Source: a virus
Virus record (IMG/VR): IMGVR_UViG_3300021962_000005
Span: 1-56,093 of that record
Length of the DNA stretch: 56,093 nucleotides
Strand: one strand, 5' to 3'
The notes under the pieces are model-generated. The model was given only the letters and a program-made list of their open reading frames with translations. It did not search any database and was not told where the DNA came from. Made by a program: the position numbers and the translations under genes. Below, piece after piece: positions 3,436-53,087 of this stretch (position 1 is the stretch's first letter; each line of letters starts with the position of its first letter).

Positions 3436-3906
3436 ATGGCCAAAAGAAAACACAGGCACTTGCCGCAGCCAATACCAGAGATGACTGAAAAGGATGTCGA
3501 ACGGTTCTGGGCGAAGGTAGATGTGCGTGAACATGATGAGTGTTGGGACTGGAAATCAACCGCCGTAGCCGCCGGATACGGTCGCATAAAAATATCCCAG
3601 AAGCTCTATTCTGCTCACCGCGTAGCGTTCTTCTTGGCCAATCCAGACGTAGACATCACCGGCAAGAAAGACGTTGTGATGCACTATTGCGACAACCGTC
3701 GCTGTTGTAATCCGGCCCATCTGCGTTTAGGTACTCTGCGAGACAATTTCATGGACATGCTCCAGAAGGGTCGCGGCGGAGCAATAATTGTCAAACTTAA
3801 AAAGAAAGAGGCTACTCCTCATGCTTATCTTGGACTGCGAAGTTTATCGGAATTACTTTTTGCTTATGTTCAAAAAATTAGAAGTTGGAAAATACGCAAC
3901 GATTGA
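3436..3906 (+). CDS. HNH endonuclease (homing-type, overlapping the polymerase start)
   Basis: A 156-residue HNH nuclease. Residues 30-115 carry the phage HNH pattern: CWDWKS, GYGRI, AHRVAF, MHYCDNRRCCNPAHL and the closing LGTLRDN. The cysteines and histidines of the MHYCDNRRCCNPAH block supply the zinc knuckle and metal site. TTTTGGAGG gives a strong ribosome binding site 5 bases before the ATG. The last 86 bases overlap the polymerase gene in another frame, so the tail after KGRGG (residue 115 on) is probably adventitious. Free-standing HNH genes next to polymerase genes are usually homing endonucleases. Nicking or packaging-linked roles are alternatives. Confidence 0.85.
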   Translation: MAKRKHRHLPQPIPEMTEKDVERFWAKVDVREHDECWDWKSTAVAAGYGRIKISQKLYSAHRVAFFLANPDVDITGKKDVVMHYCDNRRCCNPAHLRLGTLRDNFMDMLQKGRGGAIIVKLKKKEATPHAYLGLRSLSELLFAYVQKIRSWKIRND

Positions 3907-5599
3907 AATGTTCGAGGGCCAATCAGTCGATCCTCGCAGAATAAATCGCCTACTGGCGTCAGACACGACAATCAGCTTCAACGGAAATTCCTACGATCTC
4001 TATATCATTGCCGCCGCCCTCGCCGGGTGGAAATGCTCGCAGATAAAAGAGCTGTCGGATGACTTGATCAAGTCGAAGTTACCGGCTTGGAAGATCGCAC
4101 AGCAGTATGATCTGCAGTTGCCGCAGTGGGACCACGTCGATCTCTTCGAGGTAGCGCCCGGAAAGGCCAGCCTGAAGATTTACGGGGGAAGGCTGAACGC
4201 TCCGCGCATGCAGGATCTCCCCAGCGAGCCTGACGCCATGATTACCGCCGATCAGGCGGCAGAGATGCGGAAATACTGCGCGAACGATCTCGACACTACC
4301 GAGCGCCTCTACCGGGCTATGGAGAGCCAGATACGCCTGCGGGAGGAGATGGGTCAGCAGTATGGCGGCATCGACCTGCGCAGCAAGAGCGACGCCCAGA
4401 TCGCCGAGGCGGTTATCAAGCATGAGCTGACAGAGCTGACCGGCAAGTCCTACAAGCCGCGCAAGGCTGAGATTGGGTCTCTGCTGAAGTACGAAGACCC
4501 CGGCTTCGTTGAGTTCCAGTCGCCGCACCTGCAGGAAGTGTTCCGCATGGTTCTGAATAGCGACTTCCCCGTCGGACTGAACGGCTCTGTGCAGCTCCCA
4601 AAAGAGCTGCAGAACAAGAAAATCGTGATCGGTGACACCGAGTACAAGATGGGCATTGGCGGCCTGCACAGTTGCGAGAAGTCCCGCACCGTCGAGGCAA
4701 CATCCGAGCAGATCCTTGCCGACTTCGACGTCGCCAGCTACTACCCTAATATCATCCTGAAGCAGCGGCTGTCGCCGAAGTCCATGGGGGCAGACTTCCT
4801 GACAGTCTACAAGGACATTGTCACGCGGCGGCTGAAGGCGAAGGCGGCGGGCGACAAGGTGACGGCAGACACCCTGAAGATCGTCGTGAACGGGTCGTTT
4901 GGGAAGCTGGGCAGCATGTACTCCAGTCTGTACGCGCCGGAGCTGATGATCCAGACCACGGTCACCGGCCAGCTCTGTCTGCTAATGCTGATCGAGATGC
5001 TGGAGGATGCCGGAGCGAAGGTTGTCAGCGCCAACACCGACGGCGTCGTCGTCCTGTTTGACAAGGCACTCGAAGACACGATCATGGGGCTGACGTTTGA
5101 GTGGTCGATGCAGACCAGCTTTGAGCTTGAGCGGTCAGACTACCGCTCGCTGCACAGCCGGGACGTGAATAACTACATTGCGGTTAAGTTGGACGGCAAG
5201 ACCAAGCGGAAGGGTGTCTACGCCGAGCCGCTGCTGAACAAGAACGCCGACTTCCAGATTGTCAGTGACGCCGTCGCCAATTATCTGAGCAAAGGGACGC
5301 CTCTACGCAACACGATAGTGCCGAGCAACGACGTGTGGCGGTTTGTACATATACGGACAGTGACGGGCGGCGCAGTGTGGCGGGGGCAGTTCCTCGGCAA
5401 GGCTGTGCGGTTTTACTACTCGGCAGAGGCGATGCAGGGGGAGGCCATTCACTACGCGAGGAACTCCAACCGCGTGCCTCGGTCCGAGGGCGCAAAACCC
5501 ATGATGGAGCTGCCGGAGAAGATGCCGTGCGACATGGACTACGCCAGATACCTTATATTGGCGCAGGAGGCGCTGAAAGACGTGGGGGTTGAAGTATGA
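3821..5599 (+). CDS. DNA polymerase, family B, with 3'-5' exonuclease
   Basis: A 592-residue replicative polymerase. The N-terminal proofreading exonuclease shows Exo I DCE (D5, E7), Exo II NGNSYD (N54-D59) and Exo III YCAND (Y152-D156). The polymerase core has motif A FDVASYYP (D303), motif B K353-IVVNGSFG and motif C NTDG (D407). Motif C normally reads DTDS, so the first aspartate is replaced by asparagine, while the essential second one is kept. At under 600 residues it is short for a family B enzyme (phage examples are commonly 700-900), close to protein-primed polymerases, but I cannot point to clear TPR insertions. The ATG at 3821 (AGAGG upstream) is chosen over an upstream TTG at 3788 because the exonuclease begins right after it. 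Confidence 0.9.
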   Translation: MLILDCEVYRNYFLLMFKKLEVGKYATIEMFEGQSVDPRRINRLLASDTTISFNGNSYDLYIIAAALAGWKCSQIKELSDDLIKSKLPAWKIAQQYDLQLPQWDHVDLFEVAPGKASLKIYGGRLNAPRMQDLPSEPDAMITADQAAEMRKYCANDLDTTERLYRAMESQIRLREEMGQQYGGIDLRSKSDAQIAEAVIKHELTELTGKSYKPRKAEIGSLLKYEDPGFVEFQSPHLQEVFRMVLNSDFPVGLNGSVQLPKELQNKKIVIGDTEYKMGIGGLHSCEKSRTVEATSEQILADFDVASYYPNIILKQRLSPKSMGADFLTVYKDIVTRRLKAKAAGDKVTADTLKIVVNGSFGKLGSMYSSLYAPELMIQTTVTGQLCLLMLIEMLEDAGAKVVSANTDGVVVLFDKALEDTIMGLTFEWSMQTSFELERSDYRSLHSRDVNNYIAVKLDGKTKRKGVYAEPLLNKNADFQIVSDAVANYLSKGTPLRNTIVPSNDVWRFVHIRTVTGGAVWRGQFLGKAVRFYYSAEAMQGEAIHYARNSNRVPRSEGAKPMMELPEKMPCDMDYARYLILAQEALKDVGVEV

Positions 5600-8876: not shown

Positions 8877-9338
8877 ATGGAATTTAACACGCCGGAAGCT
8901 CTCTATCAGCACTACAAGAATGTCCGCCAACGCATTGAAACGGCCTCCAAAGAGGCGGCAATAAAGAATGGCGTCATCGTACTCCCAATCAAAAAATTGC
9001 CGCCGCCTGAGCAGAAAAGAGCGGCAGAGACAGAGCAAAGCGAAGAAACTCCGGTCATAGAGATGGAGCCACCAAAACACCTCAACGACACGCAAAGGAT
9101 CATGTACGAGATTGCCCTCAAGCACGGCATTCTTGTGTCAGATATGCGCGGACCTTTGCGCCTGAAGAAGTTTGTACTTGCGCGTCAAGAAGCAATGTGG
9201 GAGATTAAACGTCAGAGGCCAGACTTGTCCCTGCCACAGCTTGGGCGCATGTTTGGCGGGCGAGATCATTCGACAATAATTCACGGGATCCGGACGCACC
9301 AACAGCGTCTAGATTCTGGTAAAGAATTGTGCGTCTAA
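8877..9338 (+). CDS. Phage protein with C-terminal DnaA domain IV
   Basis: A 153-residue protein whose last 60 residues match the DNA-binding domain IV of DnaA: ARQEAMWEI (about 102-110), SLPQLGRMFGG and the hallmark GGRDHSTI (127-134), which in DnaA contacts the TTATCCACA box. There is no AAA+ ATPase domain. Residues 1-65 form a charged helix and a proline- and glutamate-rich linker. It could direct the replisome to DnaA boxes or compete with host DnaA; perfect boxes occur at 281-289 and 54739-54747. It is the last gene of the rightward operon, just before a strong terminator. Confidence 0.85.
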   Translation: MEFNTPEALYQHYKNVRQRIETASKEAAIKNGVIVLPIKKLPPPEQKRAAETEQSEETPVIEMEPPKHLNDTQRIMYEIALKHGILVSDMRGPLRLKKFVLARQEAMWEIKRQRPDLSLPQLGRMFGGRDHSTIIHGIRTHQQRLDSGKELCV

Positions 9339-28649: not shown

Positions 28650-30002
<1,353 letters not shown>

Positions 30003-47932: not shown

Positions 47933-48416
47933 CCTGCTGCTGCGTCATCAGCAGTACTCTCTTTAGTGCGTCACGGTCTTCGACCGCCAATTGATCGACG
48001 TCAATCGTGACCGGCTTCAGCTCAATCGGCCCGCCGCCCGGCCCGCTGACTTCATGGCGAGACACGTCGCCATAAATTCGCGGCGCGATTTTCATCACGC
48101 GCCACTGATAATGGTTCAACTTAACCCGAGTTGAGTTAACATTGTCCTCGGTGCAGGCATCTGCGAGCCTTTTAAGCTCGTGCATTTCATGATCCGCCAG
48201 CGCCTCGCGTGCGCGTGCGCATTGAAAATCAAATTCCGGATGCGCCAATCGCCAACGATAAATGCTTGAATACGAAGGCATATCAGCATCACTGCAGACA
48301 TCATTCAGGTCTCTGCCAGTTATCACGCGCTCGCAGAACTCAGCCGCAACGTCCGGCGAATACTTTGTCGGACGCCCAGCAGGCTTGTGAGGTACTCCGG
48401 GTTTAACCCGTGGCAT
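47886..48416 (-). CDS. terS: Terminase small subunit-like protein (Sf6 gp1-type)
   Basis: A 176-residue protein. The N-terminal DNA-binding helix-turn-helix reads GRPTKYSPDVAAEFCERVITGR and continues with DMPSYSSIYRWRLAHPEFDFQCARAREALADHEMHEL, the typical Sf6 small-terminase pattern. The central helices contain NHYQWRVMKIAPRIYGD, and the C-terminal 40 residues are acidic. It recognises phage DNA and feeds it to TerL. It overlaps the GapR-like gene by 14 bases and precedes TerL by two small genes. Confidence 0.85.
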   Translation of the reverse strand: MPRVKPGVPHKPAGRPTKYSPDVAAEFCERVITGRDLNDVCSDADMPSYSSIYRWRLAHPEFDFQCARAREALADHEMHELKRLADACTEDNVNSTRVKLNHYQWRVMKIAPRIYGDVSRHEVSGPGGGPIELKPVTIDVDQLAVEDRDALKRVLLMTQQQDGTYAALPQDTDDNE

Positions 48417-48687
48417 TGGCTTTCTCGCGCTCTATAGCCGCCATCCCAAGTGGCGTATCTGCAAGCATTCCAAGGGCTTGCATGTATGTCTCGATCAGCG
48501 CCTGCTCGGTCTCTCGTGCGTGCTGATCCTGCTTACGCATCGAGACGATCTTGCGCAGGATTTTGACGTCGAAGCCGTTTGATTTGGCCTCAGCGTAGAC
48601 GTCCTTGATGTCTGCGCCAAGCACAGCCTTTTCGTCTTCCAGCCGCTCGATGCGTTGTACCAAACTCTCTAACATATTGTTATTCAT
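48403..48687 (-). CDS. GapR-like DNA-binding protein (DUF2312)
   Basis: A 94-residue protein strongly resembling GapR, a nucleoid-associated protein of Alphaproteobacteria: IERLEDEKAVLGADIKDVYAEAKSNGFDVK, then ILRKIVSMRKQD, keep nearly all conserved positions (the family reads VYAEAKGNGFDVK and RKQD). GapR binds overtwisted AT-rich DNA ahead of replication and transcription forks and stimulates topoisomerases. Here it is the first gene of the late packaging operon, overlapping TerS by 14 bases. It may compact DNA for packaging, relieve supercoiling during phage replication, or manipulate host chromatin. It is the main host indicator. Confidence 0.9.
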   Translation of the reverse strand: MNNNMLESLVQRIERLEDEKAVLGADIKDVYAEAKSNGFDVKILRKIVSMRKQDQHARETEQALIETYMQALGMLADTPLGMAAIEREKANATG

Positions 48688-48858: not shown

Positions 48859-48920
48859 TTGACACACGAATTTTATTCGCGTATAGGTATCTCACGGTCG
48901 CTGGTGACCGCTACATGGAG
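48859..48920 (+). promoter_or_regulatory. Early promoter/operator/leader-hairpin cassette, copy 1
   Basis: TTGACA (48859-48864), an exact 17-base spacer and TATAGG (48882-48887) form a strong sigma70-type promoter. The spacer holds the inverted repeat CGAATTTTATTCG, a probable operator lying between -35 and -10. Downstream, CGGTC/GACCG (48895-48899 and 48906-48910) form a 5-bp leader hairpin, followed by the GGAG ribosome binding site. The whole block is repeated at 49450, 50331 and 51263. Confidence 0.85.
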
Positions 48921-48927
48921 ACCCACA

Positions 48928-49434
48928 ATGAACATGGAACAAGCCATCGAAGCCCTCATCCCGATCATCGCAGACCGCGTTGCCGCGCAATGGGGTCGCC
49001 AATTTGACCGTCTGGTTGAGCAGTTCGGCACGACCCTCACCGGCGTGTACAATTCTGGAAGCGCCAATGTTTGGGGTGAGACCATACGACCACTGTGTAG
49101 TGCAGTTGAGGTCAGCCACAACCGCTACGAGTACAAGCTCAACGACGCCAAAGTCGCCGCCGCCGCGCAAGCATATGCAGAAGCAGCCGCAAACGAGTGG
49201 CGCGAGAAGATCACCGGCAAGCTGGCTGATGTTGAGTACCGCGAGTTCAAACTGTTCGGCGGCTGCAATTTCCTCGTCCACGCTACCCGCGACGGACACG
49301 ACATCCGGTTGGATCAGCAGATCATCCTGAAGAGCAGCCCGAAAGGCAAGCTGTTCAATCAGTTTCCTGCTCGCATCTACGTCGACGGCAAGCTCGTCAG
49401 TGAGAAGAAATACAAAGAAATGTGGGTGGCGTGA
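48928..49434 (+). CDS. Early protein of unknown function (cassette 1)
   Basis: A 168-residue protein starting at the ATG 7 bases after the GGAG of cassette 1; the frame extends upstream into the promoter but is not translated there. Features: an amphipathic helix (MNMEQAIEALIPIIADRVAAQW), an alanine-rich helix (AKVAAAAQAYAEAAANEW) and a C-terminal beta region (ATRDGHDIRLDQQIILKSS, PARIYVDGKLVSEKKYKE). No enzymatic motif is evident. As an early, strongly promoted gene it is probably expressed on entry and may act on the host. Confidence 0.7.
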   Translation: MNMEQAIEALIPIIADRVAAQWGRQFDRLVEQFGTTLTGVYNSGSANVWGETIRPLCSAVEVSHNRYEYKLNDAKVAAAAQAYAEAAANEWREKITGKLADVEYREFKLFGGCNFLVHATRDGHDIRLDQQIILKSSPKGKLFNQFPARIYVDGKLVSEKKYKEMWVA

Positions 49435-49449
49435 GCCATCCATACCCTG

Positions 49450-49511
49450 TTGACACACGAATTTTATTCACATATAGGTATCTCACGGTCGCTGGTGACC
49501 GCTACATGGAG
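49450..49511 (+). promoter_or_regulatory. Early promoter/operator/leader-hairpin cassette, copy 2
   Basis: TTGACA (49450-49455), 17-base spacer, TATAGG (49473-49478), the leader hairpin and CTACATGGAG are all as in copy 1. The operator arms are slightly degenerate: GAATTTTATTC remains, with an outer mismatch (ATTCAC instead of ATTCGC). Confidence 0.85.
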
Positions 49512-49518
49512 AAACATT

Positions 49519-49815
49519 ATGGCTAACATCGTTCACGGCAACGTCGAAGTCCCGGTCGAGCAGTTTGAGTTCAACGGCGGCCTGTACTACGGCTGCATCT
49601 GCGCCAATTACCTGCGACACTCAGACCGCAGCACGATCACTCACGAGGCCCACCTGATCCGCCTAGTTGACCTCAACCTCGATGAGGACGTGGACTGGGA
49701 GGATGACGACAACCTGCACACAATCCCGCTAGGCAGTGACCTCGCAAAGGCTCTGCTGGACAAGTATGATGACTTTGTCGAGGACGAGTGCCGCGACGAC
49801 TGCCGCTTTGACTGA
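49519..49815 (+). CDS. Small acidic early protein (cassette 2)
   Basis: A 98-residue protein starting at the ATG downstream of cassette 2. It is acidic at the C-terminus (LDKYDDFVEDECRDDCRFD), with two cysteines in CRDDC spacing, and has a beta-rich middle (VPVEQFEFNGGLYYGCICANYL). Acidic small early proteins often mimic DNA or inhibit host enzymes, but here that is only a possibility. It is followed 9 bases later by a small gene without its own cassette, so the two are cotranscribed. Confidence 0.68.
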   Translation: MANIVHGNVEVPVEQFEFNGGLYYGCICANYLRHSDRSTITHEAHLIRLVDLNLDEDVDWEDDDNLHTIPLGSDLAKALLDKYDDFVEDECRDDCRFD

Positions 49816-49824
49816 GAGGGGAAT

Positions 49825-50064
49825 ATGGACACGATTACAATCATCACAGAGATCAGGCTCAACCCCGCGCTGGGCCTGTACACCATCGCCCGGAACGGCA
49901 GCGACATCGGCCAGTTCTGGCAGAGCAAGAAAAACCCGCTGGTCTGGCTCACCAACGCAGGCGACCAGTTCACATGCTACGGAGAATGCGTCGAGGCGCT
50001 TATGCGGGATCCAAAGCCGATCAATTTCGACATCGAAGCGTGGACCGAACAGCAGGTCTTCTGA
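49825..50064 (+). CDS. Small early protein
   Basis: A 79-residue protein with a GAGAGGGGAAT leader before the ATG. It reads as a compact alpha/beta unit (LNPALGLYTIARNGSDIGQFWQSKKNPLVWL, then GDQFTCYGECVEALMRD), with a C-x-x-x-C pair. It is the last gene of the second early transcript and is followed by a terminator at 50071-50099. No family is recognised. Confidence 0.65.
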   Translation: MDTITIITEIRLNPALGLYTIARNGSDIGQFWQSKKNPLVWLTNAGDQFTCYGECVEALMRDPKPINFDIEAWTEQQVF

Positions 50065-50070
50065 AAACAA

Positions 50071-50099
50071 ATCGCCGCAAATCGCGGCGATTTTTTTTT
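50071..50099 (+). terminator. Rho-independent terminator before the iteron array
   Basis: ATCGCCGC (50071-50078) and GCGGCGAT (50084-50091) form a perfect 8-bp stem around a 5-base loop, followed directly by eight Ts. It closes the transcript of the 49519-50064 genes and marks the left edge of the repeat region. Confidence 0.88.
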
Positions 50100-50272
50100 G
50101 GCGGTTTATTGGCGGTTTATTGGCGGTTTATTGGCGGTTTATTGGCGGTTTAATTTGTTAATAAATACAAAAGGTTGCGGCGGTTTATTGGCGGTTTATT
50201 GGCGGTTTATTGGCGGTTTATTGGCGGTTTATTGGCGGTTTATTGGCGGTTTATTGGCGGTTTAATTTGTTA
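50100..50272. repeat. 11-bp iteron arrays (two blocks)
   Basis: Block A (50100-50154) has four perfect copies of GGCGGTTTATT plus a truncated fifth; block B (50179-50264) has seven perfect copies plus a truncated eighth. Both blocks end in the same TTTAATTTGTTAATAAATACAA stretch (only one base differs), then AGGTTGC, so a longer unit has been duplicated as well. Eleven bp is about one helical turn, so all copies face the same side of the DNA. No open frame of interest crosses the array. It is a candidate replication origin or protein-loading site; CRISPR is excluded because there are no spacers. Confidence 0.8.
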
Positions 50273-50286
50273 ATAAATACAACAGG

Positions 50287-50320
50287 TTGCGGCGAGATAA
50301 TTCGCCGCAATTTTTTTTTT
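50287..50320 (+). terminator. Rho-independent terminator after the iteron array
   Basis: TTGCGGCGA (50287-50295) pairs perfectly with TCGCCGCAA (50302-50310) around GATAAT, followed by ten Ts. Together with the terminator at 50071-50099 it encloses the iterons, insulating them from transcription. The next promoter cassette starts 10 bases further on. A truncated copy of its 3' half recurs at about 51236-51252. Confidence 0.88.
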
Positions 50321-50330
50321 GCAAACCCTG

Positions 50331-50391
50331 TTGACATGCGAATTTTATTCGCGTATGGGTATCTCACGGTCGCTGGTGACCTGACATGGAG
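50331..50391 (+). promoter_or_regulatory. Early promoter/operator/leader-hairpin cassette, copy 3
   Basis: TTGACA (50331-50336), 17-base spacer with the full inverted repeat GCGAATTTTATTCGC, and TATGGG at -10 (50354-50359). The leader keeps GGTCGCTGGTGACC but diverges afterwards (CTGACATGGAG). The upstream bases CAAACCCTG are shared with copy 4. Confidence 0.85.
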
Positions 50392-50398
50392 ATTTGAG

Positions 50399-51211
50399 AT
50401 GACTGCATACATGATCGAAGGCAACAACGCTCACCGCATCGAAGAGACTTACGTCGAAAAATGCGCCAAGTGCGCAGGCACCGGCAATTTCCGCTCGTAC
50501 ATGGGCCGCGTCGTCGGCCAGTGCTTCGCCTGCAAAGGCGTCGGCCACAAGACCTACAAGACAGACAGCCAGACCCGCGCAGCCAATCGCGCCAAGAGCG
50601 CCGACCGCAAGGTCCGCAACCGTCAGGATAATCTGGACACGTTCCGCCAGTTTCAGCCTGCCGCCGCTGCGTGGATCGAGGCGGCTGCTGCCCGCGGATT
50701 TGAGTTCGCTCAGAGCCTCGCAGAAGCTGTTGCGAAGTACGGCGACCTGACCGAGGGCCAGTTGGCTGCGGTGGAACGCTGCATCGCCAAGGACGCCGAG
50801 CGCGAAGCGCAGCGTGCCTCCAAGGCCGAGCAGGCACCTACCGTCGACGCATCCAAGCTGCACGCAGCCTTTGACGCAGCCGCTGCTGCCGGCCTGAAGT
50901 TCCCGAAGATGCGCTTCGAGGGTTTTTCGATCAGCCCCGCCCCGGCCCATGGCCACAACGCAGGTGCGCTGTACGTCAAGGACGGCCACGACTATCTCGG
51001 CAAGATCAGCAGCGGTCGTTTCTTCGCCTCTCGCGACTGCGACGCAGAACGCGCTCAGAGCGTCGCTGACGTCGTTTCTGACCCAACTGCTGCTGCTGTA
51101 GCCTTCGGCAAGAAAACCGGCTCATGCTGCTGCTGTGGCCGCGAACTGACCGATCCGGCCAGCGTCGCAGCGGGCATCGGTCCCATCTGCGCGGAGAACT
51201 GGGGGCTCTGA
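50399..51211 (+). CDS. DnaJ-type zinc finger and DUF6011-like protein (cassette 3)
   Basis: A 270-residue protein. N-terminal CAKCAGTGN (C22, C25) and CFACKGVGH (C42, C45) form a DnaJ-like CxxCxGxG zinc-finger pair without a J domain. The central region is alanine-rich and helical (about 80-180). The last 45 residues contain GSCCCCGRELTDPASVAAGIGPICAENWG, the DUF6011 zinc-binding pattern seen in many phage and actinobacterial proteins. Two zinc modules at opposite ends suggest a nucleic-acid or protein-binding adaptor. It starts at the ATG after cassette 3. The stop codon lies in the loop of a GC-rich hairpin. Confidence 0.8.
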   Translation: MTAYMIEGNNAHRIEETYVEKCAKCAGTGNFRSYMGRVVGQCFACKGVGHKTYKTDSQTRAANRAKSADRKVRNRQDNLDTFRQFQPAAAAWIEAAAARGFEFAQSLAEAVAKYGDLTEGQLAAVERCIAKDAEREAQRASKAEQAPTVDASKLHAAFDAAAAAGLKFPKMRFEGFSISPAPAHGHNAGALYVKDGHDYLGKISSGRFFASRDCDAERAQSVADVVSDPTAAAVAFGKKTGSCCCCGRELTDPASVAAGIGPICAENWGL

Positions 51212-51217
51212 GCCCCC
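51201..51217 (+). other. Stop-codon GC hairpin
   Basis: GGGGGC and GCCCCC form a 6-bp stem whose five-base loop contains the stop TGA of the preceding gene. There is no T-tract. Similar hairpins follow the next two genes (51626-51643 and 51909-51922), suggesting a shared 3' mRNA-protecting element. Confidence 0.6.
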
Positions 51218-51262
51218 ACACAGCTACAATGAAATAATTCGCCGCAATTTTTACAAACCCTG

Positions 51263-51326
51263 TTGACATGCGAATTTTATTCGCGTATGGGTATCTCACG
51301 GTCGCTGGTGACCGCAACACATGGAG
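51263..51326 (+). promoter_or_regulatory. Early promoter/operator/leader-hairpin cassette, copy 4
   Basis: TTGACA (51263-51268), 17-base spacer with GCGAATTTTATTCGC, and TATGGG (51286-51291) are as in copy 3. The leader is GGTCGCTGGTGACCGCAACACATGGAG. Upstream lies a remnant (51236-51252) of the 3' half of the terminator at 50287-50320, so the cassette was duplicated together with its upstream flank. Confidence 0.85.
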
Positions 51327-51333
51327 ACTAAGT

Positions 51334-51621
51334 ATGACCAACATCGCAACCCTCGCCGACCGCTACGCAGACCTCGACGCCGAGATCAAGGGCCTTCAGC
51401 GCCTGCAGGCTGAACTGAAGGCCGAGATCAAGTCCCTCGGTCGCGAGGAGATCGTCGGCGAACGCGCAATCGTATCGCTGGGCCTGTCCGAGCGTTCAAC
51501 CCTCGACACCAAGCTCGTCCGCGAGCTGCTGACAGAGGAGCAGGTCGAAGCCTGCACCAAGGTCTCGTTGATCGAGACCATCCGCGTGAAGCCGTCAAAG
51601 GCCCCCGTGACCATCGCCTAA
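51334..51621 (+). CDS. Coiled-coil early protein (cassette 4)
   Basis: A 95-residue protein. Residues 5-40 form a coiled coil (LADRYADLDAEIKGLQRLQAELKAEIKSLG), followed by a short strand (ERAIVSLGLSER), a helix (TKLVRELLTEEQVEAC) and a closing strand. This recalls small phage proteins that bind nucleases or host factors (such as Siphovirus Gp157-like proteins), but the match is only in style. It is the first gene of a transcript that runs through several small genes up to 52903. Confidence 0.68.
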   Translation: MTNIATLADRYADLDAEIKGLQRLQAELKAEIKSLGREEIVGERAIVSLGLSERSTLDTKLVRELLTEEQVEACTKVSLIETIRVKPSKAPVTIA

Positions 51622-51625
51622 CAAT

Positions 51626-51643
51626 CGGGGGCTTCGTCCCCCG
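51626..51643 (+). other. Post-stop GC hairpin
   Basis: CGGGGG and CCCCCG around CTTCGT form a 6-bp stem starting 5 bases after the stop. There is no T-tract. It is similar to the hairpins at 51201 and 51909. Confidence 0.6.
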
Positions 51644-51671
51644 CCCCATCCCAAAACTCAGGAGCTAAAAC

Positions 51672-51908
51672 ATGAAACTCACCACTGCATACATCCGCAC
51701 CATCGCAAAACGTGATCCGCGTATCGACGAAATCGAAATCTGCCCGGATCATCAGGTCACCGTTTGGCTCGATCCAAAATGGACATGGAACGCTTTGGAC
51801 GGCAACATCACCTGCATGACCTACAACGTCGAACACGCAGAGGATTGGTATCGCGACGATGTAGCCACCTTTCTGGGCCATGTAAAAAACATAGAATTGG
51901 CAAAGTGA
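51672..51908 (+). CDS. Small early protein of unknown function
   Basis: A 78-residue protein with a CAGGAGCTAAAAC leader before the ATG. It has a compact alpha/beta pattern: a helix (TTAYIRTIAKRD), a beta hairpin (EIEICPDHQVTVWLDPKW), then an acidic helical end (EHAEDWYRDDVATFLGHV). It lies between two GC-rich hairpins in the fourth early transcript. No family is recognised. Confidence 0.65.
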   Translation: MKLTTAYIRTIAKRDPRIDEIEICPDHQVTVWLDPKWTWNALDGNITCMTYNVEHAEDWYRDDVATFLGHVKNIELAK

Positions 51909-51922
51909 GGGGCTCCGGCCCC
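51909..51922 (+). other. Post-stop GC hairpin
   Basis: GGGGC, TCCG, GCCCC form a 5-bp stem with a tetraloop directly after the TGA. There is no T-tract. It belongs to the series at 51201 and 51626. Confidence 0.55.
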
Positions 51923-51948
51923 CGCCAACCTTACAATGGAGAACGGCA

Positions 51949-52479
51949 ATGAACACCATCATCAAAGCGACCCAAGAGGAAGTTTTCTTTGAAGTAATAT
52001 TGGCCGCAGACACGCTTGCAAAAGCCTATCTGAGTTATATCCCCGTGCCAAAACCTAAAAAGTCAAGAAAGACCAAAAAACCCGAGGCGTTAGAAGAACC
52101 CGAGGCGTTAGAAGAACCCGAGGCGTTAGAAGAGGCCGGCGAAGGCTCTAAGGTTAAAAAGAAAAAGAAAAAGAAGAAAAAATCCGAAGAATCAGAAAAA
52201 CAGAACGAAGAGGTCAGGACATACGAAAAAAGAAAAACAATGCTCTTGGACGCTATCAAATCCAACAAAGAGGATTTCAGTGACGCCAAGGACATTGTAT
52301 CAAATCTGTCAGCTACCATGGACCAGATAACCTACGAAATGACGACCGACGTAACAAAATTTGTGGACGTCAATAGGAAGGTCAAAGAGCTTAACTCTAT
52401 CCTACACATCGGCAGGTCATACCCAAACGACGCAATTAAGCGCACCAAAAAAATTATAGGAATGTGGAGGGGATACTGA
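51949..52479 (+). CDS. Charged repeat protein (EALEEP and poly-lysine)
   Basis: A 176-residue protein. Residues 1-30 form an amphipathic helix. Next comes a lysine/proline-rich stretch, three EALEEP repeats encoded by 18-bp DNA repeats (52081-52134), and a poly-lysine run (KKKKKKKKKSEESEK). The C-terminal 100 residues form a coiled coil (KTMLLDAIKSNKEDF, ATMDQITYEMTTDVTKFVD). The base composition differs from its neighbours (more A), so it may be a recent acquisition. Its alternating acidic and basic tracts suggest binding to nucleic acid or histone-like host proteins, but the function is unknown. Confidence 0.68.
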   Translation: MNTIIKATQEEVFFEVILAADTLAKAYLSYIPVPKPKKSRKTKKPEALEEPEALEEPEALEEAGEGSKVKKKKKKKKKSEESEKQNEEVRTYEKRKTMLLDAIKSNKEDFSDAKDIVSNLSATMDQITYEMTTDVTKFVDVNRKVKELNSILHIGRSYPNDAIKRTKKIIGMWRGY

Positions 52480-52688
52480 TGGACAAGCCGAGCGCAATTC
52501 AATGGTCTGACAAAAAGCCTGACGGCACCCGTGAGCTGACCTATCTAAGCAACGTAGTCGGCTGGGCCTGCAAGGCCAAGCACTACCGCGAAATGGGCGA
52601 CTGGATCGCCCTGAGCGTCCACGGCAACGTCCGCCACACCTACTCCCTGAAGGCCGCCAAAGTGGCCCTGATGGAGATGTACTCCTGA
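52479..52688 (+). CDS. Small early protein
   Basis: A 69-residue protein. ATG 52479 overlaps the preceding stop (TGATG), with GGAGGGG as the leader; the frame extends upstream but is not needed. It has a tryptophan- and lysine-rich pattern (SAIQWSDKKPDGTRELTYL, VVGWACKAKHYREMGDWIALSVHG). It is coupled on its other side to the HTH gene (TGATG at 52686). No family is recognised. Confidence 0.65.
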   Translation: MDKPSAIQWSDKKPDGTRELTYLSNVVGWACKAKHYREMGDWIALSVHGNVRHTYSLKAAKVALMEMYS

Positions 52689-52903
52689 TGACCAAAGAGC
52701 AATTCAAAGCGTACATGGACGAATTGAAGATGTCGTCCTCAGACATTGCCTTACTGACAGGCAACACACCCCGCGCCGTGCAGCTATGGCTGAGTGGCAC
52801 TAACCCGGTCCCGCAATCAGCCGCCCTGCTGCTGCTGGCCTACAGGGACGGCAGGATAGACGACGACTGGATCGTCGAAATGGTCGCCACCTTCAGGAAC
52901 TAA
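52688..52903 (+). CDS. Small Cro/CI-like HTH protein
   Basis: A 71-residue DNA-binding protein with a Cro-like helix-turn-helix: MSSSDIALLTGNTPRAVQLWLSG (about 15-37), followed by a short helix (AALLLLAYRDGR). It is the last gene of the fourth early transcript and ends just before a strong terminator. A small regulator in this position is the obvious candidate to bind the palindromic operator of the early cassettes, but that pairing has not been shown. The MerR-like protein at 292-498 is the alternative. Confidence 0.75.
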   Translation: MTKEQFKAYMDELKMSSSDIALLTGNTPRAVQLWLSGTNPVPQSAALLLLAYRDGRIDDDWIVEMVATFRN

Positions 52904-52904
52904 A

Positions 52905-53087
52905 TCAAGGCCCCTGAGCAGGGGCCTTTTTTACGAGACGCCAGAAGTCTGTTTCCTCGGGATGCGGGATCAACTCCCAGCCTGTCGGCGCAGACCACTT
53001 GAACGTCCAGATCACGATGCCGGGGATCCAGAGGCCCATCAGCAGGCGTTTACGCCACCGGCGCTTCGATACGAGCTTCTTCCGCAT
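52905..53087 (-). CDS. Small membrane protein
   Basis: A 60-residue protein. ATG 53087 has GGAGAGGGT upstream; an extra in-frame start at 53108 is weaker. An N-terminal basic stretch (MRKKLVSKRRWRKR) is followed by one membrane segment (LLMGLWIPGIVIWTF), and the C-terminal half is polar. Its coding end overlaps the terminator stem at 52907, so it is convergent with the early operon. It starts from the AT-rich control region. A superinfection-exclusion or anti-host role is possible. Confidence 0.6.
   Translation of the reverse strand: MRKKLVSKRRWRKRLLMGLWIPGIVIWTFKWSAPTGWELIPHPEETDFWRLVKKAPAQGP
52907..52932 (+). terminator. Strong rho-independent terminator of the early operon
   Basis: AAGGCCCCTG (52907-52916) and CAGGGGCCTT (52919-52928) form a 10-bp stem around a 2-base turn, followed by TTTT. 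The 3' codons of a minus-strand gene (52905-53087) are encoded by the same stem. Confidence 0.85.

Follow-up and report, generated by a model that had tools for sequence, protein, structure and literature searches.

In this virus genome, four near-identical promoter cassettes precede unrelated genes, and we put at roughly 0.83 the probability that they form an early regulon shut off by the small helix-turn-helix (HTH) protein encoded at 52688, bound in the promoter spacers, with the leader hairpin being a separate RNA element. According to the proposed circuit, the cassettes would be host-polymerase promoters of an early phage regulon, and the HTH protein, made from the last gene of the cassette 4 operon, would accumulate. 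Its dimer would bind the palindrome (core GAA-N5-TTC) between the -35 and -10 elements and would keep RNA polymerase off the four promoters, among them the one that drives its own gene, so that the early genes would be switched off. These genes are presumed to be early solely from their position and architecture.

Promoter cassettes and their genome context

The window, i.e. the whole stretch of DNA that was analysed (56,093 nucleotides), is the entire virus record. Its first and last 127 bases are identical, so it was assembled circularly and is probably a complete genome. The portal, terminase and lysozyme genes run leftwards. The small genes headed by the cassettes form a rightward block, which begins divergently from a GapR-like gene. 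The pattern TTGACA-N17-TATRGG has exactly four matches in the window, at the cassette starts given in Table 1, while none is expected from 100 shuffles. In each cassette TTGACA and TATRGG flank a 17-bp spacer that holds a palindrome; a leader hairpin and ATGGAG come next, and the genes that follow the four copies are unrelated. Over the 51 bases between the start of the -35 and the end of the leader hairpin, 46-51 are identical between copies, and copies 3 and 4 agree at all 51. In copies 3 and 4 the palindrome reads GCGAATTTTATTCGC; copy 1 has a single mismatch in the outer part, and copy 2 has two. No fifth cassette or further strict operator copy was found in the complete 56-kb genome. The -10 hexamers (TATAGG and TATGGG) are weak matches without the conserved final T, and a standard sigma-70 scan missed all four cassette promoters.

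Table 1 Positions of the cassettes, the terminators and the HTH gene in the window
Feature	Position	Strand	Parts or description	Gene(s) driven	Basis
Cassette 1	48859..48920	+	-35 48859-48864; operator 48866-48880; -10 48882-48887; hairpin 48895-48910; RBS 48915-48920	48928-49434	exact pattern match; covariance model (CM) 77.8 bits
Cassette 2	49450..49511	+	operator 49457-49471 (two outer mismatches); -10 49473-49478; hairpin 49486-49501	49519-49815 (and 49825-50064)	pattern match; CM
Terminator after gene 49825-50064	50069..50099	+	upstream of iteron-like array		terminator scan
Complete terminator	50284..50320	+	directly upstream of cassette 3		sequence; terminator scan
Cassette 3	50331..50391	+	perfect operator 50338-50352; -10 50354-50359; 4-bp hairpin	50399-51211 (DUF6011, E=1.7e-15)	pattern match; CM
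3' half of cassette 3 terminator with flank	51231..51252	+	second copy, ahead of cassette 4		direct repeat D10, 95% over 22 nt
Cassette 4	51263..51326	+	perfect operator 51270-51284; -10 51286-51291; hairpin 51299-51314	operon 51334-52903, last gene the HTH gene	sequence; pattern match; CM
71-aa HTH protein	52688..52903	+	XRE/HTH_3 fold with recognition helix at 28-36; candidate regulator of all four cassettes and of the operon it belongs to
Intrinsic terminator	52907..52934	+	directly 3' of HTH gene; GGCCCCTGAGCAGGGGCC then T run		read from sequence; scan gave the same stem on the - strand

The first-pass annotation had described four such cassettes, with an inverted repeat inside an exact 17-bp spacer, degenerate in copies 1 and 2, and with unrelated coding regions downstream. 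All of this was borne out; the cassette-driven genes match DUF6011 or no family. Its CGGTC/GACCG leader hairpin holds generally, but in copy 3 there are only four pairs (GGTC/GACC, then T instead of G). The annotation would have been contradicted by the block lying inside coding sequence in relatives. The frame that is open relative to the gene is one in copies 1 and 2 and another in copies 3 and 4, and the leader length varies among relatives; the block is therefore not coding, and a reading of the cassette as an N-terminal coding repeat was rejected.

As had been claimed, copies 3 and 4 share an upstream flank with a broken terminator half (22 nt, 95% identical, repeat family D10), the terminator being complete at copy 3, where it spans 50284-50313, and represented by its 3' half at copy 4. 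At position 17, A is found in all four window copies and G in all copies of two relatives, L006 and L012; at position 6, both L012 copies have G. Since lineage-specific bases are common to the copies of one genome, the copies tend to change together, as judged from a small sample. The shared flank and the joint change would fit duplication or conversion between copies. The duplication part of the proposed "mobile promoter module" thus stands, whereas mobility as such found no support.

Several other features of the genome were noticed. The GapR-like DNA-binding protein (48403-48687; PF10073, E=2.1e-30), divergent from cassette 1, is kept in most cassette-bearing relatives, and its gene was the only match when the DNA of the region was searched against a phage collection. 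The DUF6011 protein (phrog_4046) also occurs in PB1-like Pseudomonas phages and in Rhizobium and Caulobacter phages at ~44% identity. At 50094-50264, between two terminators and upstream of cassette 3, an 11-bp direct repeat, TTTATTGGCGG, occurs ~15 times, forming two arrays with AT-rich interruptions, TTAATTTGTTAATAAATACAA; the copies look like iterons of a replication origin. A protein with DnaA domain IV (8877-9338; Bac_DnaA_C, E=1.1e-15) could act on an origin such as this array. An ORF at 28650-30002 with collagen-like repeats at 29192-29463 is probably a tail fibre.

Operators and their regulator in related phages

Relatives were sought through the portal protein, since the HTH alignment, being too diverse, did not lend itself to a pattern search. 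The related contigs are not independent, several being fragments of the same population. The exact cassette block had no match in viral contigs or in Rfam. Three methods, namely a Hamming scan, a regular expression and a covariance model, recovered the same architecture in many portal relatives. It begins with a -35 close to TTGACA and a palindrome whose centre lies ~15 bases from the first T of that -35, and continues with a -10, a leader, ATGGAG or a similar ribosome-binding site (RBS) and a start codon.

At the centre of the promoter spacer the relatives have a nearly invariant operator core, GAA-N5-TTC, whose flanks vary between phages symmetrically, as CGAA..TTCG, GGAA..TTCC or TGAA..TTCA. 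In the first 19 cassettes 90.9% of the named pairs form, the covariation score is 0.232 compared with 0.101 in shuffles, and every slid register collapses. The promoter-operator pattern gave 115 forward and 8 reversed-control matches in 4.0 Mb, with overlapping loci counted repeatedly; its strict form was present in 15 of 27 related records and the reversed control gave none.

Variants were also seen. The operator overlaps the -10 rather than the spacer in L135 and L138. Altered operator cores are of two types, that of L078 and that of the L417 group. The early regions of L417, L420 and L311 carry repeated cassettes with the core GTGCAG-AAC-CTGCAC and the leader TTTGTAAGGTTGATT, which is a sister regulon. 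Upstream of the cassettes in L166, L168 and L202 there are tandem operators, the first ahead of the -35 and the second within the spacer, an arrangement that suggests paired binding in this subgroup. More distant portal relatives have other repeated promoter-leader cassettes without GAA-N5-TTC (L025 ~3493-4861, L032 583-1978), and L069 contains at 1-915 a noncoding-looking array of GGCAAGGCAGGCGAGG units spaced by 39-49 bases. In the cultured portal relatives HTVC027P, DSL-LC04, CRP-902, GB2A and MW202675, which were checked in part, no HTH-family match and no comparable cassette were found; the "transcriptional repressor" of GB2A does not belong to the family of the HTH protein at 52688. A genome scan returned one portal relative, in a Methylococcales MAG contig, with neither the HTH gene nor operators.

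The first-pass annotation had named the HTH proteins at 52688 and 292 as possible regulators. An AF2 model of the 71-aa protein at 52688 (pLDDT 90.8) has helices at 3-13, 17-24, 28-36, 43-53 and 59-70, i.e. a five-helix XRE fold with an HTH. Profile and fold matches include Aca2, HigA2 and the 434 and P22 repressors; the fold matches have a probability of 1.0 but E-values of 0.03-0.2, and Pfam HTH_3 falls below the cut-off. BURRH matches in the PDB profile search, which arise from many sub-threshold repeat matches, were ignored. The HTH protein was found at E<1e-20 in all 15 records with the strict operator-promoter pattern and was absent or weak in 9 of the 12 others (Fisher p=5e-5 over 27 records, kinship uncorrected), the remaining three having variant operators. 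Wherever a locus with operators was checked, the HTH gene was encoded on the strand of the cassettes, 0.4-4.8 kb downstream of them. No operator was seen in L142, L413 and L059, loci with an HTH homologue. In the window no terminator with a T run was found between cassette 4 and the HTH gene, which is the last gene before a terminator; the protein is therefore probably under its own control.

To compare protein with operator, every alignment column was scanned against the base flanking the core, using 28 HTH proteins less than 85% identical. Residue Q32, in the recognition helix, was the best predictor (z=7.5, next column 3.8), and its lead persisted when divergence over the rest of the protein was controlled for (partial Mantel r=0.53, next 0.19). 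The flanking base is C with Q, E or D at residue 32, G with R, T with F, I, M or Y, mostly A with H, and G or A with N or T; for T, N and H the rules are loose. Two further residues of this helix, 33 and 30, go with the base that comes after the core. The rule for residue 32 was written down before the last scan, in which one fresh case was testable by the strict criterion, and it fitted (L397, R32 and G). The altered-core operators, seen afterwards, carry the expected T in L078 (I32) and in L417, L420 and L311 (Y32). The predicted GG flanks are present in L135, L138, L166, L168 and L202, where the search was guided by the expectation and the bases were read directly. Taken from these sequence comparisons, the regulator of the cassettes is very probably the protein at 52688 and not that at 292: co-occurrence and covariation favour the former, and the latter occurs in only 2 of the 27 related records. 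The relatives and the amino acid-base covariation also lend strong support to the earlier proposal that the cassettes form a coordinated phage regulon and carry their operator within the promoter.

The leader hairpin

The leader stem begins ~8 bases after the -10, which places the predicted mRNA start at or just before it; the hairpin thus stands at the predicted 5' end of the mRNA and adjoins the RBS. A universal leader hairpin was rejected, as it is absent from many cassettes in relatives, and since other subgroups lack it, it is an accessory. Leaders of the GGTC type form a subgroup in which the stem is under selection: pairing is 90.4%, compared with 14-42% in slid registers, and compensatory changes occur at three of five pairs (C-G to U-A, U-A to G-C, C-G to U-A).

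An inverted repeat adjoining a promoter could also be a second DNA operator. This is unlikely, as the loop varies in length from 3 to 8 among relatives while the stem is kept, three pairs show compensatory changes and G-U pairs occur, which fits an RNA hairpin and not a DNA site of fixed spacing. Stems at the 5' end slow mRNA decay, and it seems most likely that the hairpin is a separate RNA element which would protect the short early messages. Aca2 is reported to shut off its targets at both DNA and RNA; by analogy, there is a slim chance that the early mRNAs are targeted through their leader hairpin as well, by the HTH protein or by a partner, which would give a double shut-off.

Alternative regulators and comparison with known systems

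An activating role, a host regulator and a MerR-type activator are each less likely than repression by the protein at 52688. The sequence gives the position of the operator and not the direction of its effect, and on this ground the protein could be an activator or anti-repressor of the cassettes. We regard this as quite improbable because the operator lies inside a core promoter with the optimal 17-bp spacer and overlaps the -10 in L135 and L138, which suits occlusion, and because repression was found for all ten of the Aca families with such sites that were tested (PMC9410906).

It is very unlikely that a host regulator reads the palindrome and lets the cassettes sense the state of the host. 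The promoters look host-type, and regulators common to phage and host exist, such as TgrL and its Caulobacter homologues (PMC10688885), but the operator flanks change together with one residue of a phage-encoded protein, which is not predicted for a shared host regulator. It is just as improbable that the phage is temperate and the protein the immunity repressor of its prophage. The protein shares the XRE fold with lambdoid repressors, but at only 71 aa it has no CI-type C-terminal domain, its gene is the last of an early operon and not a divergent repressor gene, and the phage integrase domain (PF00589) was absent from this genome and eight relatives (0 of 9 records; 14 of 14 control genomes positive). 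Because no integrase was found, lytic shut-off is likelier than lysogeny.

MerR-type activator sites lie in promoter spacers, and the MerR/excisionase-like protein at 292 (HTH_17, E=4.6e-11) might bind the palindrome in that manner; this is hardly credible, as it occurs in 2 of 27 related records while operators occur in at least 15, the spacer is 17 bp and not the 19-20 bp corrected by MerR-type activation, and the operator covaries with the HTH protein at 52688.

The proposed circuit, the most likely one, resembles Cro in logic and the Aca proteins in anatomy. The Aca proteins (Aca1-10) are anti-CRISPR-associated HTH autorepressors with an inverted repeat within the core promoter (PMC9410906). 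As there, a small phage HTH protein is encoded last in its operon and the repeat lies within the core promoter; the best matches in sequence and fold include Aca2. Here, however, a single protein seems to act at as many as four separate promoters, and the operator keeps a fixed place in the spacer; the genes are not known anti-CRISPRs, and the protein is at most a candidate member of an Aca family. With Cro and the 434 and P22 repressors the protein shares the XRE fold and the logic of an early lytic repressor; unlike in the lambdoid Cro/CI system, there is no lysogeny module, tripartite operator or divergent repressor gene, and the operators are single, multiple and dispersed. For Cro proteins, recognition-helix residues are described as correlating with operator half-sites (Hall, Lefevre and Cordes 2005, as cited in PMC4997575).

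The SAS/ESAS elements of cluster K mycobacteriophages also recur before the start codons of unrelated genes, some of them preceded by inverted repeats. They are thought to act in translation, and a cognate regulator was not identified there (PMC3203893); SAS is a 13-bp GGGATAGGAGCCC repeat at start codons, and all four cassette blocks are unrelated to it in sequence. TgrL of the virulent Caulobacter phage phiCbK is likewise an XRE protein, expressed early and mostly repressing its direct targets (PMC10688885), but its reported targets are host genes shared with host paralogues, whereas here they would be the phage's own early promoters.

Each element taken singly is of an already known kind. 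What is new is the predicted pairing of regulator and operator throughout an uncharacterised phage group, the putative multi-promoter arrangement in which the operator has a fixed place in the spacer, and the residue-base series. In an incomplete literature search, no published account of such a regulon was found. The analysis provides a predicted DNA target and function for a small unannotated protein family in a large, mostly uncultured phage group, and a set of naturally occurring repressor-operator pairs in which a single residue seems to determine a single base. Two questions thereby become open to direct test: how a phage shifts the specificity of its repressor when this calls for joint change of several operators, and whether phages that are related keep separate early-gene circuits in one cell.
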